Assembly: GCA_004369045.1 (NCBI GenBank)
Contig: ML213503.1
Location: 1,893,121 to 1,957,120 of the forward strand
Direction of reading: 5' to 3'
Length of the DNA stretch: 64,000 nt
Source: Heliocybe sulcata
Lineage: Eukaryota; Basidiomycota; Agaricomycetes; Gloeophyllales; Gloeophyllaceae
This document shows, piece by piece, positions 3,001 to 53,588 of this stretch. The notes under the pieces are model-generated. The model was not told the origin of the DNA. It ran no database searches and worked only from the letters and a program-made list of their open reading frames with translations. Numbering within the stretch: the first letter of the stretch is position 1; each line of letters starts with the position of its first letter. A program made the position numbers and the translations under genes.

Positions 3001-6000
3001 AAGTTCTTTTTTGCAATCAGGTCCTCCCACCTGATAGCAGAAGACCATTTGTACCCAAATCCCTCTGTTGCTGTGTATGAGTATCGGATCTCAACAAAAC
3101 TGACGTTGACTCACGATCTGGCTGGATCCGGATCCTCGTGTGCCCAACCGCTTCTATGGGTAGGGAGAAGTCTTGTCCGGGGGCTGGACGCGGCGTAAGG
3201 TTGATGCAGATACAGCGATAGATGCCCTGGCATACCTATCTTTTCCAGAGAGTAGACCGGACGGCCAGACTCATCAACCATTGTCAATTCCACGGGGTAC
3301 AAAGTCTGGTTTTCCACTTTATATGTTGAGCGGAGAGTGACAACCTTCACATTGTCCTCTTGGACTTCAACTTCACAGAGGAGGCGGTTGGAATACTTCT
3401 CGGTCTGTGGCCGCAGCGAGAAGGCATATTCTCCTTCTCTGTCTACAGGAATGCTGCGTAACTTCTCCCAGGGTTTGCCGATGAATTGGACGCCAATGTT
3501 GTGCTGACCGATAGACGAATGCTGCGGTTGACAATTAGTATATGCAAAGAACACCTTCAGTCTAGCGCCTACCTCGCGTATTGTCCTCCAATCATCGAAT
3601 CTCCAATCCATCAATTGACCGTCTGCTAAGGTCGCAGTCGGTCCGCGTTTATCACTACTGCTGTCGTCCACATCGGACCAGACATACAGAGAAGACCCGG
3701 TTTTGTTGCGGATGCGATACGGTGCATAACTCCCGCGGGCCTTCTGCAGAACTCGCTCACCCTCCTTCCCCCATAGCTTGGCCGTAGTCATAAGGAGCTC
3801 TAAGAAGGTAGTGCTGACATTTAGATCCAGACGGTCTTGCGACGCGACTTTCACGGCCAGACCGTGCGAGGTTTCATCTCTGGAGATCTGCGAGAATGGG
3901 TCAGTGAAAACGGGCTAATAACGATCAACATACAGATGCGGTGAATGTCCAAGGATCAATTACTGGTAGCAGATGTTCAGTATAATTACTGCGTCTAGAG
4001 GAAAGCACCTACAAGGTTCCCAGTGAGAGTTGGTCAGATTCCAATAGCTGACCTGCGTGGACATTGTAGTGGTCGCGTGGAGCTGGTTCCCGCTGTCAGC
4101 GACTTCCTCAAAAAGCAGCAGCAACCATACCTCGCCTGACCAATCCTTCGCACCCACTATGAAACGCTTCACTTTCAGATGAAGCATGGGTTGCTCGTGG
4201 ATGTCGCCAATGAGGATTAGTCGAAACCCGTCCAACGAACCCGTAAACTGCAGAACTTAGCGACCTTGGATGGACAGAATAACCGGGAACTGCACCTGTT
4301 CTTTCGTGAGTAAGGCTTCTGCCTTTCCAATGGCTCCACTCTTAGGGCGACTGGACATCGTTCTTGATCCTGGGAATGAACCAGCCCTTTGGGACCTCTT
4401 TGATACAGAACCCTCCTCTTCCGATATCGGCTTGCTCTCAGACCTAGCTGACTCGGCATATAGCGAGAGCGCCTTGTTGGCAATTTGGGTTATCAGGTTG
4501 AAATCCCGATACGAAGTACGGAAGATGACAGGCTTCGAGGAGACCTCGATGCTTGTCATTTGCTGCGTGGATGACGAACTTCGACTGTCCAGTGACAGAG
4601 TGAAGTCCATCTCATCCAAGAAACTGACCCTTTCAGATTCCTTGCCCATCTGGACAAGCGACATACCCAGTCGCTCTACTGTAACCGCAAGTATGCCCTA
4701 AAGTGAAGCTCAATCACGTAGTTCCGCATAGTGGAATATAACAATGGGGTTCACCTGCTGCGAGACGAGAACCTGCTTGATAGACAACTGGATGGCCTGA
4801 GTGTTGGGAAGAGCGTCGTTCTCTAGCACTATCACCGATAAGTCATGCAAGTCAATCCTAAAATCGAGGGACGATTCGGTCGGGCCTGGTTCGGACTGTT
4901 CCAGTGCTTGATCTCCAGCTTCCGTATCGTTGTTAAGATTGATACCCCGCGTGAAGAAGTCGAGCAGGGCAAAGACCAAGTCAACAGCTAGTAGGATCTC
5001 GGGGGAATCAATTGTAGCTACCGCCATAGCAGAACTGTGAGAACCAGCTGACATGGTGTACAACACCATGACCTGGTTACGTTCGTGTTGAGCAGCTGGT
5101 ATGATCTCCCGGAACCGGGAGTTGCCTGGACGGGTGTTGCTCATTGTAAGCGACTGTAAGATGACCTGTGCCTCCCCAGCGCCGTCGGACAGCAACTTGA
5201 ACCGCACGGAGTTATTGTTGAGCGCGAACCTCGCGATTCCGTGCTCTTTGAGCGAGGAAGACGTCGTTGCGTTTTCGTCATACAAATGAAGCTTTATACT
5301 CTTCACGTCCAAAGCAAAGTCAAGAGACGTATAGGGTTGGCCGTCACCTGACGTGATCGGAAGCAGTTCAGGACGTAGGTCTTCGCCGGCTGGGGTACCG
5401 CTACTCTCTGAAGTACTTGCTTCCCTAGAAGGACTGTACAAGCTGGACTGCGCTGCTTGGGCTGATCCTTCCGGAGCGCCGGCCAGTACTCTGGGAACAG
5501 AAGTGGATAATGCAATCAGAGTACGGTATTGCACCTGCGTTAAGTGCAGTTTAACATCGGAAATCGTCACGGTAATCTGCAGAAATCATAAGAAACAGTG
5601 GACGGAAGAAAAGGGGTGGCAGATACCTGGGTAGCAGGTCGATCACGCCGCTGAATACGGTCGAGATCTGTGCTCTGACTGATGACTGCATTTACGTCAA
5701 TATCATCAATGATCTTGAGCATCGATGTATTTCCGTCATAGTGATAAGTCGACGTGAATTGTATCCCGCGTAAGCTTGCCTTGGTCTGAATCGCATCGCT
5801 TTCATAGGCATTGTTAGCTTGGACTTCACCGAGTCTCAACGTCAGAATATCCTTGGACTCCGTCGCATTGCACGGGAAGACCAGCACAGGAGACTTGACG
5901 GAAATCCGATACTGCATTCTTTCCATCTCCGATGCACTTTGGATAGCCGCTTGTGCCGCAGCGTCATATAATCCCTTCAGTTTTGCTAGTTTGGCAAGGA

Positions 6001-9000
6001 AGAGGTATAGGTCGTGCAGTGGCTGTTCCAGGAAGTGGAGGTGGATAGATGCAGCTTCTACCGAAACCGATGCCTTGACGCCCGTATACACTTCTGAATC
6101 TCTTGGGTCGTATGTCTGGTAGCTGAACACGGCAAAGTTATCGCCCTCGATGGACAGGATCTGCTTGAACTCGGGGTCGGCGGTGGCCAGGGAGGAGTCA
6201 TCGGTAAGGGAGAGGGTTCCAAGTTTACCGCTCACGCGCATTGTACCGGCTCGCAGAAGGATGGCGACATCAGCCGTCGAGAGTGAAAGGGTCGCAAGTT
6301 GGATGTCATCGTTAATTAGGAGCACTAGAAAGGTGTCAGGATTCGCTACTGGGATGCCGATATCGTGACTCCAAACCTTGGACGCTAGCTAGTTTCACGA
6401 CCACGCGAATTTTCTCGGACGAACTACCAGAATCGGCCTGAACTGGAGAGACTTCGGCATCTGCGTCCTGACTGTCATCTTGGTGTTCTTGTGCTGGTGA
6501 AGCTGGCCCACTTGACTGTGACTGGGGCACGAACGTAGACATGATGAAGTCGTACATCAGGACAACTGGTTCGGGTGCGGCACGGAAAATGAATGTAGAT
6601 ATCGTTATGTCTACATTCTGGTCTATGCTCTGGAACTTGCTGTCGAATTCCGGATTCGCCTTGTCCGCGCGTGTATATTTGACTGTCAACAAGTACTTGT
6701 TGTCCGGCGAATCCCCTGTCACCGAAGAGACGAACTTGATCGGTTCCTTGTCGGGTTGCGAAACATGCATAGACAGTGCCCTTGATGAGGGCATTCACAT
6801 TGCGAAAGGAAGCATAGACTGGAGGACATACCTTAGGTTAACGTCCACCTGCATATTATACTTCGCGAGAGCAAAGGCAAGCGCGAAACCTTCGAGGTTA
6901 AGATCGCCCATGGCCTTTTCGCCCTCGGAGCCTGACTTGAATAGCGAGACCCGGAACTCGTCGACTGAGAAGTCGAATTCGAAGATATGCTGATGAAACT
7001 CTGGCCGCTGAGTCAAACATTAGCTCCATGTACAGCATTCAACAGCCAAGCAATCATCACGCACTGTTGTTCTATGCTCTTCAACATCGAAAAACTGTTC
7101 CCGCCCCTCCGCTGGAGTTTCGTCTTCATTTTCCTCATCCGTCTCAATGCTATAGTCCGCCTCCGCCTGTCCGAATAGCCCGGAAGATAAGGTGAAGGCA
7201 TTAGACATGTTCCCGCCCTTGCTGGACTCGCTGACTGTGACAGTCTCCGGTTCACCGTCATCGAAATGAGGAATTGCAACGTCGATCAACCTCATAAGGG
7301 ACTTGTACTTCACATCGGACAAGTTGATCTGCAAGGTAGGCAGAGACCCTGAGACCTTGAAACGCGCCAGGTTGTATGCAGTGGGTACGATAGAGTTCTG
7401 CACTTGGAAATCCAGATTGATCCGTTCCAGCAAATGAAGATTGTCGCGGGTATCCGCAGCCAGAGCTGCCCTGCAAGAATGCAGGTTGTTCCCAATCACA
7501 AACTGCGTATCTGAATCAGTATATCTGGTCCTCTCACAAGTCAATAGCACGTACCTGCGCAGCCTCTAATCTCAACGACAGCTTGTCATACATCAGGGAC
7601 TCTAGTCGTTGCTGGTCTTCCTCAGTGTACTCCCGGTGGCGTTTCAGCTGCACCTCGCGAATAGCAGCCTTGTCCGCCAGATCGCTCTCAATCGCAATAT
7701 GACCAGCGTCCACGATCAGATGTCTGCAGTCATTCGTCGTGATACTGTCGAATATGCATGGGTCAGTCTTCGAGCTCATGACAGCACTGCAAGACTCACT
7801 CCTCAGGAATGATAATGATAGGCGCGTTGAGATCCATGTGCACGTCGATAGTCTTGTGCGCTTGCAGAGCATACTCTAGTCCTGCTCTCGTCTCTTTCCG
7901 TAGACCCTCTAGCGTCTGACTCGCTGCATCCTTGAAAATAAATGACCATCATTACAACGCCGAGCCCACATCAAAAAGGGATGCACGTACCAAAAGCGCC
8001 TCTACTGACTCCAGCTGACTCTTCGGTGGCTTGAAGAATCGGTAGACAGCTTCGACATATCCCTTGTGATAAATAATCTCCATATGCCGCATCCGAACCG
8101 TCAAGGCCGTATCCGCACGCTCGTCCAGCGGATTATTCTCGAACTTCAGGAAGAAGAACGGCTCCGGGTTCGACTGTACCGTCACTTCCGGCTCCTCGGC
8201 GACACTATCTTTGACGTGCACAATCTGATGGTACAGCGTATTCGGTGTCGTCCCATCGAACACTCTAAAGTCCCCCAGCGATATCGAAGTCTCGAGGTTA
8301 TCAGGCCGCTGCAAAACATCCGCCTTAAAATTGTCGAACACCACCGAAATGATATCCACAGCACTGCCGTGTGGATCCATCTTCAGCGCGAAACTGCCTC
8401 GCTGCAGCCGTGCATCGACATGCGCCTTCAACGCGTCCCTCGAGGGTTGAAACGACTCTACCAGGGCAGCCTTCTCGTCGTAGTCCAGGACGTCGTAAAG
8501 CTCCTTGCGCTGCTCCTCCGTCATCTCGCCCGAAAACGACGAGGACGTCTCCTGGGTATTCGACCCGTCTGAGCCCGAGGATCCCCACAACCAGCTGCCC
8601 CAGCCCGCTCGGGGCCGATTCGCTTGCTGTTGGTTGCGCTCTTCCTGGATCTTCCTCCGCGCTGCGTTGGCTTTCTTCAGCTGACTGCGCGCAATGGAGC
8701 GGTAGAATCTGATATCTTCGTAGGAGAGCTTGCGTTCCAGGCCCTCGAACATCTTGAGGTCCTGTCAATCAACAAAAGTTATATAGATCCAGTGCAAACA
8801 GCGGAAGTGCAAGCTTACGTTTCCAGCAAGCGGTCCAGTCGACTTCTGCTTGAACAACTCTACGTATCTCTTGCGGTCATCCCGTCGCTCGGCAAAGTAC
8901 GGCCACGTCCACTTTTGATTGCGCTCTTGAATGCCCGACAATATGGCAGTACTCGCGAAGCGGAGAAGTGCTCTTGCTCGGTTCTCCTTGAAGGCTTGCT

Positions 9001-50190: not shown

Positions 50191-52701
50191 TCACAGTCGA
50201 TGCGTTGTGGAGGTCCGTAACGTTGAGCGTATCGACTTGTGAGCCTTGGGATTCGACTCGGTCGTCGTCTCATCGGAGTCCCCACGTGGGTCCCAGTCAA
50301 TCGCATCCTCCAGTTCATCCACCCTCGACTGCAACTCAGACTCGCTTTTCTCGGGGCCTTCAAGAAGCGCATAGGCGGTCTCCAACCACCAGACATGCTT
50401 CTTGACAAAGTGCACCACGACAGTGCCGCCGACGCGCTTATTCTCGTAGCGCCTGCGACGGCCCTCCCGATGTGTCCATGCATATTCGGGAGTCATTGGA
50501 CTGCCTATAAGAGTACTGATTTGAACACAGCCGATCTAAAATATGACACCGGAAGACTCTTACCTCCTCTTAAAGATGACATATCGCTGCCCTCGACGAG
50601 CGCTTCCACGCTTTGCAATATGGTCAGATCCGGCACAGGAGGGGTATACCGGACATTGAAAGTCGAGACACTCGAATGTGCCCACTGCGTTGGCGTAGGT
50701 TGGTCCACGAACCACTGCGTAGACGACGAATCCGTAACATTATTGAAGTAGTCGATCATGCGCTGGTCTCCATGGAAGAGACCTTGCATGGACTTCTTGA
50801 CTCGGGTCGTCTCGGAGGGAAACAAGAAGCCATGCGAGTACCTACAGCATGACCTTAGCATTCGATCGTATGAGATGATCGACAGATGCACTTACACAGT
50901 TCCCGCCCTCGGGTGATCGTATATCCAACAATGCTCACTTCTCCACCGCACCTCGTTCGCTCGAGGATGCTTCTCCATCCACTTGGCCGTCTGCTTGTCC
51001 TCAGCACCGCTCGTCATACTCTTCACGACAGGATCACGAGCGACCCAGTCGACGAGACTCCAGCTCAGCGCGTAAAGTTCCCCAGCCATAAAGCGGTGCT
51101 TGACGAGGTATCCCCAGTAAATCATGGGGTCATTACTTGTGAGCGCAGGATCAACAGCGGGTACAAGGCCTGACGATGATGGTCGAGGCGAGTTCGTGGT
51201 CAAGGGGATGTCGGCACGCGGAGCATGAGGATTGGTGACTGTCGAGTTAGCTGGCGGAGGTCGCGTATGCAGCTCGACACGAAGTCGTGCTTCTAGTTCC
51301 GCAAGCATGACGAAAGAGTCGTCATCCGTCTTGACAACATAGTCAGGTCGAACCCATGGCTGAGGTCTCTTGGAGAGGCTGTCCTGCCGTGCAAGCACTG
51401 GATCATGTTTCGCCACAGGTGATGGAGACGAGGTGAAATTAGAGTATGAGAAATCGGGTGGGGAGATGGACGTGTTGAAGTAGTAAGGCGGGACAGAAGC
51501 GTAGTTGGATGCCCATGTGAAGAAAGCATGCGTCTTGCCAGAATTCATATTCTCCGAGATGGGCAGGATGATGATGTCGTTATAGGCTGTGTGGTAGAGT
51601 AATTGAGCATCAGGCAACGAACTACATAAGGATACTCAACACTCACTCTCCATCTCGAGTCTGATTCGGCGCTCCAAGCGCCCAGAGGGCTGACCGAGAA
51701 TAAACCTCACTATGGTTCGGGACGTGCCGTTACCCCCATCACCCTCGAGCGCACCTTCGCGGCTGCGAGGATGGCTTGCCCAAGAGCTACGCACCAGCAT
51801 CCGCCTCTCGTAAGAAGAATCCAGCGAGAATACGCCGATGAACACTCCGGCGGGTGGTAGCGAATCCAGGTTATCGGGCGGGAAAGGCGGTGGGTAGTAG
51901 TTTAGTTCGTTGGCAGGGGGAATGATGTGAACACCAGAGCTAAGAAGGGATATGCGTTCGCTGTTGTATGGGGACAGGGAGGAGCAGTAGACGCGCCATG
52001 GCAAAGGCTCTTTGTCGGGGTTGAGAATGTGGATCAATAGGAGGGTTATAAAGATGCCAAGTATGGTGAGCAGGAGCAGAGTAAGGATCTGTGGGAGTAT
52101 GTTAGTACTCGATACCAAATTGAATATGAATGCAACGGACGATCGTTATGGGTTGGCTAGGGAAGAAGGGGTGTTGCACTATCTTTCTTACGCCTCTCTT
52201 TAACCTCCTCCACCATGAAAACCCTCGTCTCCGCCGCCGTCTCGTGGGTGCGCCAAACATCCACCATCGCCGCCGATCCTCCCTCCACCATGGTCCCCGC
52301 GGGCCGTTAAGTAGCGGTGATGTCGACTCGTAGGGCTCGCTCTCCGAGTCAGACGTGCAAGCAGACGACGAGCCCGACGCAAGGAAATGAGGTAGCGGGG
52401 AGGCAGATCGCGAAGGAAGGGGCGTGCTCGTGGCGGTGGAGCAGACCGAGCGCGACGAGACTCCACTTGGGTGATGTCGGTAGTAATCAGAGGAAGGAGT
52501 CGGTACACGAGAGGGGTTCTGAAGGAGGCTGCTGGGGATAGACGAGGAGGCTACGAACGGATTTCGCGGCCGCGGATAGTATCCCGAGGAGCGTCGACTG
52601 GGTGTCTCCGAGGATTCCGTTCCTGAAGAGGCCTCGTACTCGTCAGCATGGCTTGCTCGGGGCGACGACCTCGACGGCAAAAGTCCTAGCGAGAGCGCCA
52701 T
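50191..52701 (-). CDS. Glycosyltransferase family 31-like (beta-1,3-galactosyltransferase type), type II membrane protein
   Basis: The start MALSLGLLPSRSSPRASHAD opens a cytoplasmic Ser/Pro-rich and then strongly Arg-rich region (FGAPTRRRRRRGFSWWRR). After an intron comes the signal-anchor segment ILTLLLLTILGIFITLLLI. The lumenal part has VFIGVFSLDSSYERRMLVR and SSWASHPRSR (the RRxxxRxxW-type GT31 start), then IILPISENMNSGKTHAFFTW. The DxD metal-binding motif is in YVVKTDDDSFVML near 51320. YWGYLVKHRFMAGELYALSW and WRSEHCWIYDHPRAGTV follow. The last exon ends TLRTSTTHRL. It probably adds a hexose to glycoproteins or glycolipids in the Golgi; donor and acceptor cannot be read from sequence. 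Four introns are placed. A TIR element lies about 230 bp upstream of its start. Confidence 0.85.
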
Positions 52702-52922: not shown

Positions 52923-52932
52923 CGTACTGGAC
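52923..52932. repeat. Left target-site duplication of the TIR element
   Basis: CGTACTGGAC directly abuts the outer end of the left inverted repeat and is identical to the 10 bp at 53579-53588 that abuts the right one. Confidence 0.85.
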
Positions 52933-53084
52933 AGGTATGGCCTGATGAATTTCGGGAGGTTGACCGCCGCCGAAATTAGAGGCGATAGCACCTCCGAAAT
53001 TGGAGGTGCTGCTAAAAATAACTAACGCGCGTCGCTGGCGCGGGCAATGCCGGCGAACAAATTATGCGTATATAACTACAGCTC

Positions 53085-53114
53085 CCTTAGGGTACCACAA
53101 GTGGTACCCTAAGG
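53085..53114. repeat. Perfect 14-bp-arm inverted repeat inside the TIR element
   Basis: Arms CCTTAGGGTACCAC (53085-53098) and GTGGTACCCTAAGG (53101-53114) are perfectly complementary around an AA spacer. The left arm carries a TTAGGG, as does the nearby tandem array. It could form a stable hairpin or cruciform. Confidence 0.9.
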
Positions 53115-53174
53115 TGTCCAGTAGAATACAAAATATACATACAGATGACTTGCGCATATAGTACTTGCGGGGGT

Positions 53175-53334
53175 CCGGGGGTGCAACCCCCGGCGTTAAG
53201 GTTTGGTAGGGGGGTCCGGGGGGGTACCCCCCGGCTGGTTAGGGTTCCGTTAGGGTTCCGTTAAGGTCCGGTTAGGGTCCGGTTCAGGTCCGGGTTATAG
53301 GATATTTTCCCATGGGGGTCCGGGGGGCACCCCC
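53175..53334. repeat. Three G-run/C-run hairpins with a shared GGTCCGGGGG core
   Basis: Near-identical motifs occur at about 53169-53194, 53209-53235 and 53314-53335. Each has the form G-run, TCC, longer G-run, 2-4 spacer bases, C-run. The first has perfect 8-bp arms (CCGGGGGT and ACCCCCGG). The second and third copies are nearly complementary. They are all within the TIR element. Confidence 0.75.
53238..53292 (+). repeat. Five-unit 11-bp tandem array resembling telomere repeats
   Basis: Five contiguous 11-bp units occur: two of GTTAGGGTTCC, then GTTAAGGTCCG, GTTAGGGTCCG and GTTCAGGTCCG. Three carry an exact TTAGGG, the fungal telomere core; two more TTAGGG lie at 53356-53361 and 53372-53377. 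The 11-bp period is not that of a telomere, so it is a minisatellite inside the transposon rather than telomeric DNA. Confidence 0.85.
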
Positions 53335-53578
53335 GCTTGGTTAGGTTCGGGTCGGTTAGGGTCGGTGTTGGTTAGGGTACGGTGTAGGTACTTAAAATAA
53401 TATTTCATTACTACGGTACGGGGTGAGCATACGAGGGAAGAGACTAAGTCCCTTCTATACTATATACCAGCGCGCTGTGGCGTGCGTTATTTATTTTTAG
53501 CGGCACCTCCAATTTCGGAGGTGCTATACCTCTAATTTCGGCGGCGGCCAACCTCCCGAAAATCGTCAGGCCATGCCT

Positions 53579-53588
53579 CGTACTGGAC
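53579..53588. repeat. Right target-site duplication of the TIR element
   Basis: CGTACTGGAC directly follows the outer end of the right inverted repeat, identical to 52923-52932. Confidence 0.85.

Follow-up and report, generated by a model that had tools for sequence, protein, structure and literature searches.

The element and its target-site duplication

The window (the whole 64,000-nucleotide stretch of Heliocybe sulcata DNA that was analysed) harbours a 648-bp element with terminal inverted repeats (TIRs) at 52932..53579 on the plus strand, running from CAGG to CCTC. This copy sits between minus-strand reading frames. On one side it lies ~230 bp upstream of the ATG of frame 52102-52701, which has no Pfam match; the frame after that one weakly matches a galactosyltransferase, under the curated cut-off. 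On the other side, a frame whose weak matches are to glutathione S-transferase, likewise under the curated cut-offs, ends 248 bp before the element. No gene was recognised in the element or its interior.

An earlier note on this DNA had placed a TIR element of 646 bp at about these coordinates, and we find it there. Its boundaries had been called exact, although each falls one base short: a C adjoins the quoted left end in all eight copies known to us (see below), and a C likewise adjoins the quoted right end in 8/8, and we have therefore moved the ends one base outward on each side, to 52932 and 53579. The same note had reported a perfect 10-bp target-site duplication. The flanks of the window copy are indeed identical over 10 bp under the quoted ends (CGTACTGGAC), but flank reading and a comparison of boundary models indicate a duplication of 8 bp, GTACTGGA, with its left copy at 52924..52931 and its right copy at 53580..53587. 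The comparison used seven copies and left out the copy L008, which has no target-site duplication. Ends placed at AGG..CCT give an exact duplication (10 bp) in 3/7 copies, CAGG..CCT in 4/7 (9 bp) and AGG..CCTC in 3/7 (9 bp), while CAGG..CCTC gives an exact duplication in 6/7 (five of 8 bp and one of 9 bp), with the seventh matching at 7 of 8 bases. The exact 8-bp duplications under this last model are GTACTGGA for the window copy and TCAAAACC, CGTGTGGG, AGAGGTCG and GTTAACTA elsewhere; the 9-bp one is AGTCTACTG, and the imperfect pair is GTTGCTGG/CTTGCTGG. The 10-bp match at the window copy is thus accounted for by an 8-bp duplication whose outer neighbours are also C on both sides, through chance or a weak preference for such sites; five of the seven duplication-bearing copies have C immediately left of the duplication.

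Terminal repeats and interior

The inverted arms, estimated earlier at about 98 bp, measure ~99 bp and align without gaps in a block of 50 nt (92% complementary) and one of 47 nt (94%), with 89/100 alignment columns identical. Arm alignment and end comparison assign the 5' repeat (52932..53031, plus strand) to a CAGGTAT...GATGA end type and the 3' repeat (53481..53579, minus strand), read inward, to a GAGGCAT...GACGA end type. The window letters and repeat analysis reveal a palindrome, GCACCTCC-GAAATT-GGAGGTGC, inside the 5' repeat (52988..53009), and repeat analysis finds a like palindrome inside the 3' repeat (53503..53524). The CACCTCC half of the 5' palindrome recurs in both ends of a larger element on contig C24, described below, and the palindrome is a candidate transposase binding site.

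Further inward lies a perfect palindrome with 14-bp arms, CCTTAGGGTACCAC-AA-GTGGTACCCTAAGG (53085..53114), found by repeat analysis and copy comparison. Its 2-bp loop divides the copies evenly, four reading AA and four TT; L008, which belongs to the AA group, has one palindrome arm partly deleted. Inversion of the palindrome would account for the loop difference in one step.

The interior also contains a G-rich module (53169..53389, plus strand) of 11-bp GGTTAGGGTCC-like tandem units. The module sequence GGGGGTCCGGGGGGG occurs 14 times in the genome versus 0 times in a backward control. Seven of these occurrences fall in seven of the eight copies, and five are in or beside members of a second short family (C3:488051, C5, C9 and two in C15); another, at C3:494038, is near an end pattern of that family, and one further occurrence is at C25:116585. 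The second family, which has the G-rich module in common with the element at 52932..53579, is ~445 bp long with unrelated ends, GAGGGG...GTATATACTC (...ACTC), and is represented by L042 4307-4751 (C15), L043 (C9) and L044 (C5). Its duplications are of 8-9 bp, namely GTGGAAACT and GGATGCAAT (9 bp) and GTACCCTA (8 bp, shifted one base). Beside the end of one second-family copy, an insert of ~413 bp (L044 ~3827-4241) with ends TATGGTGCGGGC...GCCCGCACCATA resembles a short nested element with inverted repeats and a duplicated TA.

Copies and age of the family

Searching the organism's own genome (31.6 Mb, 51 contigs) we found eight copies with both ends, the window copy included; such counts are lower bounds. 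The copies measure 539-646 bp by the quoted ends, and their mutual identity is 92.5-99.7% over ungapped columns. The eight share their ends, bearing out the proposal of a complete non-autonomous TIR element belonging to a multi-copy family with a terminus of its own. Two copies, L002 and L003, differ in 0.3% of columns (99.7% identical), which indicates that, on its own scale, the family was mobile recently. The insertion in the window had itself been called recent, and this holds in part: its perfect duplication is compatible with a fairly recent event, but it carries 14 private changes, more than all but one of the other seven, and is not the least altered of the copies. No empty sites were found for seven of the copies, whose flanks match their own places only. 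L008 sits within a repeat; at three further places paired matches to its flanks lie ~0.3-0.6 kb apart, a spacing that suggests a deletion at L008. On the best reading the element is a member of a low-copy family of miniature inverted-repeat elements (MITEs), the family being new and its kind known.

End-like matches elsewhere in the genome

A search with the end pattern returned 44 matches (7 exact, 11 with one mismatch and 26 with two), compared with 10 in all for a backward control. The 18 matches at ≤1 mismatch are the ends of the eight copies and two that stand alone: a stretch of the 5' end at C15:36115 and, at C24:408813, the left end of the C24 element. The 26 two-mismatch matches are in excess over the control; 13 of them were examined (L027-L038 and one on C25), and none exceeds the best shuffles beyond the 17-mer. 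A joint pattern combining the 5' end with the C24 right end gave 11 one-mismatch matches. L008 and the C15 stretch account for two of them, in six others examined the similarity does not extend, and the remaining three are at C2:909459, C8:1175236 and C19:487005. The C15 stretch comprises 36 bases of the 5' end alone (L039 4917-4952, C15:36116-36151), 97% identical by BLAST, and no partner end was found in the surrounding 9.9-kb stretch. It is possibly the remnant of a deletion or of an excision.

On contig C8, L041 from 4781 and L045 4369-4462 are partly related to the element and lie in CpG-poor DNA, with CpG observed/expected ratios of ~0.69 and ~0.38, respectively, versus 1.05 in the element, as if from cytosine-directed mutation. 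L041 also includes a 2.7-kb stretch (5408-8161) with inverted arms of ~400 bp, in blocks 80-94% complementary, which is either a long-TIR element or an inverted duplication.

A larger element on C24 has both ends in common

The lone end at C24:408813 lies 2.2 kb from a match to a KDZ (Kyakuja-Dileera-Zisupton) transposase. Its first 30 bases match the 3' end of the short element without exception (30/30), and BLAST places the repeats of the eight copies at 72-86% identity to this C24 left end. At C24 420776-420792 we located the opposite end, an ATACCTG-terminated sequence with, directly after it, exactly the same 8 bases as stand before the left end, CAATCTCA. This is the sole position in 28.9 kb downstream with ≥13/17 end bases and then the exact 8-mer, for which ~6e-6 are expected (40 shuffles). 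The element thereby delimited spans C24:408813-420792, or 5224 bp once a nested insert is left out.

The insert (C24:414022-420775; L066, L067) has TGTCGG...CCGACA ends with AC on both sides and splits the right end, its boundary lying 17 bases inside. It gives two Plavaka matches, of which one exceeds the curated cut-off and one falls below it, and 70 bases of this Plavaka-type element are read as N. Such TGT..ACA termini and a 2-bp duplication are also reported for PlavakaA (PMC12730594). With the insert removed, the C24 right end aligns ungapped with the 5' repeat of the short element at 44/64 bases, scoring 74 as opposed to 43 with the insert kept; 2000 simple shuffles score 30.6 on average (sd 5.0, maximum 54). 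The part beyond the insert junction alone scores 53, against a shuffle mean of 26.2 and a maximum of 47.

We considered an origin of the short element by internal deletion from the C24 element and ruled it out, as the match is confined to the repeats and the interior is unrelated. Among the end-like matches examined there is no second large element with the same ends.

The C24 transposase

The transposase frame of the C24 element lies on the minus strand and comprises 945 codons (L066 5810-2976) with three in-frame stops. Each stop falls within a frame-keeping GT-AG intron candidate, of 51, 72 and 66 bases; the second candidate has no branch-point-like motif. The gene may be intact if these candidate introns are real. 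Pfam finds in the unmodified stop-to-stop frame a CxC4 cysteine cluster, of a type linked to KDZ transposases, with a score of 101.8 bits (E 3.4e-29, cut-off 26.9); the full frame is needed for this match, which is missed when the frame is cut at the first ATG. The spliced model scores 95.5 bits. The CxC4 match starts at a candidate intron junction and was made in the unmodified frame, so it supports the transposase and not the intron. The KDZ domain itself scores 27.7 and 27.6 bits on open frames, against a cut-off of 26.6, and 25.2 bits on the spliced model, just below that cut-off.

The KDZ identity of the C24 protein therefore rests mainly on CxC4. In Pleurotus, CxC5 and CxC6 clusters are described away from KDZ transposases (PMC7641404), and a cysteine cluster by itself would be no proof of a KDZ transposase; what counts is the presence of both domains, CxC4 and KDZ, in one frame. 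No TET/JBP match was found among the partner frames scanned with Pfam. The C24 protein is far from the other KDZ loci of the genome: phmmer gave no pairwise match to the frames of the ten others, and a profile built from those ten ranked it first of 474 sequences, yet with an E of 0.12. A protein search of the genome for a second close transposase found none, the catalytic frame matching its own place only.

Polarity of the two end types

Within their first 30 bases the two ends of the short element differ at positions 1, 5, 15 and 18. At all four (4/4) of these distinguishing positions its 5' end has the base of the C24 right end. The terminal bases of the CAGGTAT...GATG and GAGGCAT...GACG ends do not pair, the short copies having C at both ends of one strand and the C24 element G at both ends of the plus strand. 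The eight copies share this polarity by descent and count as one observation. The agreement suggests that the polarity of the two end types could matter to the transposase. A more specific proposal, which we regard as speculative and rather doubtful, is that in KDZ elements of the CxC4 type the two distinct ends are told apart by the transposase, and that the MITE keeps their polarity while its arms are otherwise nearly alike. The literature searched contained no earlier description of a KDZ MITE with kept end polarity.

Probable mobilisation of the family by a KDZ transposase

Our preferred reading, to which we assign a probability of about 0.88, is that the element is one of a low-copy family of MITEs, moved in trans by a KDZ transposase of the CxC4 type whose gene lies elsewhere in the genome. 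Among the eight copies, five have an exact 8-bp duplication, one an exact 9-bp duplication, one a match of 7/8 and one none; both C24 ends are held in common with the short element; and the C24 partner combines a KDZ domain (27.7 bits) with a KDZ-associated cysteine cluster (101.8 bits). Strong evidence comes from the ends and the duplication of the C24 element taken together, whereas proximity is weak evidence: of 11 KDZ loci in the genome (21 match rows), one lies within 10 kb of an end-like match, and this is the C24 element. Against the KDZ reading count the catalytic-domain score, which is close to the cut-off, the finding of the C24 transposase only once, the splitting of its right end by the nested insert, and the lack of a duplication at L008. 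The distance of the protein from the other KDZ loci, the unrelated interior of the short element, the failure to find empty sites for the remaining seven copies and the surplus of two-mismatch end matches over the control count against it as well.

The enzyme that spread the family need not have been the C24 one. In a variant of the KDZ reading, a sister of the C24 element, now lost or unassembled, would have done so and C24 would be only a cousin. We consider this a serious option, at somewhat under even odds. The interior of the short element is unrelated to that of C24 and its repeats are 72-86% identical to the C24 left end, as would suit a cousin; moreover, the C24 transposase is single and its element split, yet the 99.7% identity of L002 and L003 speaks for recent movement. 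Against the sister, our searches found neither a second close transposase in the genome nor a second large element with such ends among the end-like matches examined, and the C24 gene may still be intact if its candidate introns are real.

Transposases of other superfamilies fare much worse. The earlier note had proposed a Mutator-like element, in view of the long TIRs and the perfect 10-bp match at the window copy. Mutator-like elements typically make 9-11-bp target-site duplications. Here 8 bp is favoured (6/7 exact, one of these being the 9-bp case), and the outcome that the note had named as refuting its proposal, a lack of 9-11-bp duplications around other copies, is largely what we observe: an exact 10-bp match with the quoted ends is present in 3/8 copies, the window copy included. 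One of five MULE loci does lie 2.2 kb from copy L008, and two of the five are within 10 kb of an end-like match, but no MULE with these ends was found: one match is L008 with its own two ends, and the other, which has two mismatches, shows no similarity past the 17-mer. No MULE transposase gene was found between such ends at the five loci, a survey that more diverged ends would escape. With an 8-bp duplication, and with a KDZ transposase encoded by the sole larger element found to have common ends, the Mutator-like class is not upheld, and we regard it as the least credible of the alternatives.

A hAT MITE has slightly more to commend it. hAT elements often begin with CAGG, as the element here does. 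The genome contains nine hAT dimerisation-domain matches, and the 8-bp duplication is what hAT elements also make (PMC12730594); non-autonomous hAT elements of 597-631 bp are described in a mushroom (PMC9674265). Yet none of the nine hAT loci is within 10 kb of a match to either end pattern and no hAT transposase gene was found between such ends, although more diverged ends would escape this survey, and the element with common ends encodes CxC4 and KDZ domains instead. A hAT source is accordingly very improbable.

Under the KDZ reading, a transposase supplied by another locus of the genome would bind the terminal repeats, with its CxC4 cluster perhaps contacting the CACCTCC palindrome and the two end types perhaps playing different roles in the complex. 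Excision would take place immediately outside CAGG and CCTC, and reinsertion at a staggered cut followed by fill-in would give the 8-bp duplication. From the common ends we infer that this KDZ lineage probably mobilised the short family. The implication is a short gene-less family tied to a KDZ transposase via common, well-bounded ends, which offers eight short substrates and one candidate enzyme for studying KDZ end recognition. We found no description of a fungal KDZ MITE in the literature searched, a selection of partial texts too small in scope for a claim of priority.

Comparison with known systems

The closest parallels are KDZ1-3 of Cryptococcus, which are mobile and have TIRs of 139-241 bp and duplications of 8 bp (KDZ1) or 4-8 bp (KDZ2, KDZ3) (PMC12810828). 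They resemble our family in their long TIRs, in duplications of these lengths and in a KDZ transposase with a cysteine cluster, here found in the C24 partner. They are, however, elements of 9-11 kb with CxC1, whereas ours is a 0.65-kb gene-less element with a CxC4 partner, and the sections of that study cited here report no evidence for mobilisation of clearly non-autonomous copies (PMC12810828). Zisupton and a Dileera element also make 8-bp duplications (PMC12730594), but the C24 partner differs from them in having no TET/JBP match among its Pfam-scanned frames. Kyakuja of Laccaria has CA at its 5' end, as our element does, but is described in the relevant part of the same source with 7-bp duplications and no TIRs (PMC12730594). 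For nematode Zisupton elements, the cited portion of the account records TIRs as detected and duplications as not (PMC9297572).

Mobilisation in trans is likewise presumed for non-autonomous giant transposons of Ectocarpus, a set that includes KDZ, EnSpm and Sola-1; these differ in being giant, in carrying other genes and in belonging to a brown alga, and the cited part of the source leaves unspecified which of these giant non-autonomous families belong to KDZ (PMC12477816). MarorhAT-4, -11 and -12 of Marasmius oreades are hAT and not KDZ elements, set beside ours here by description and not by sequence; like our family, they are short, and their TIRs match those of a transposase-encoding relative (PMC9674265).
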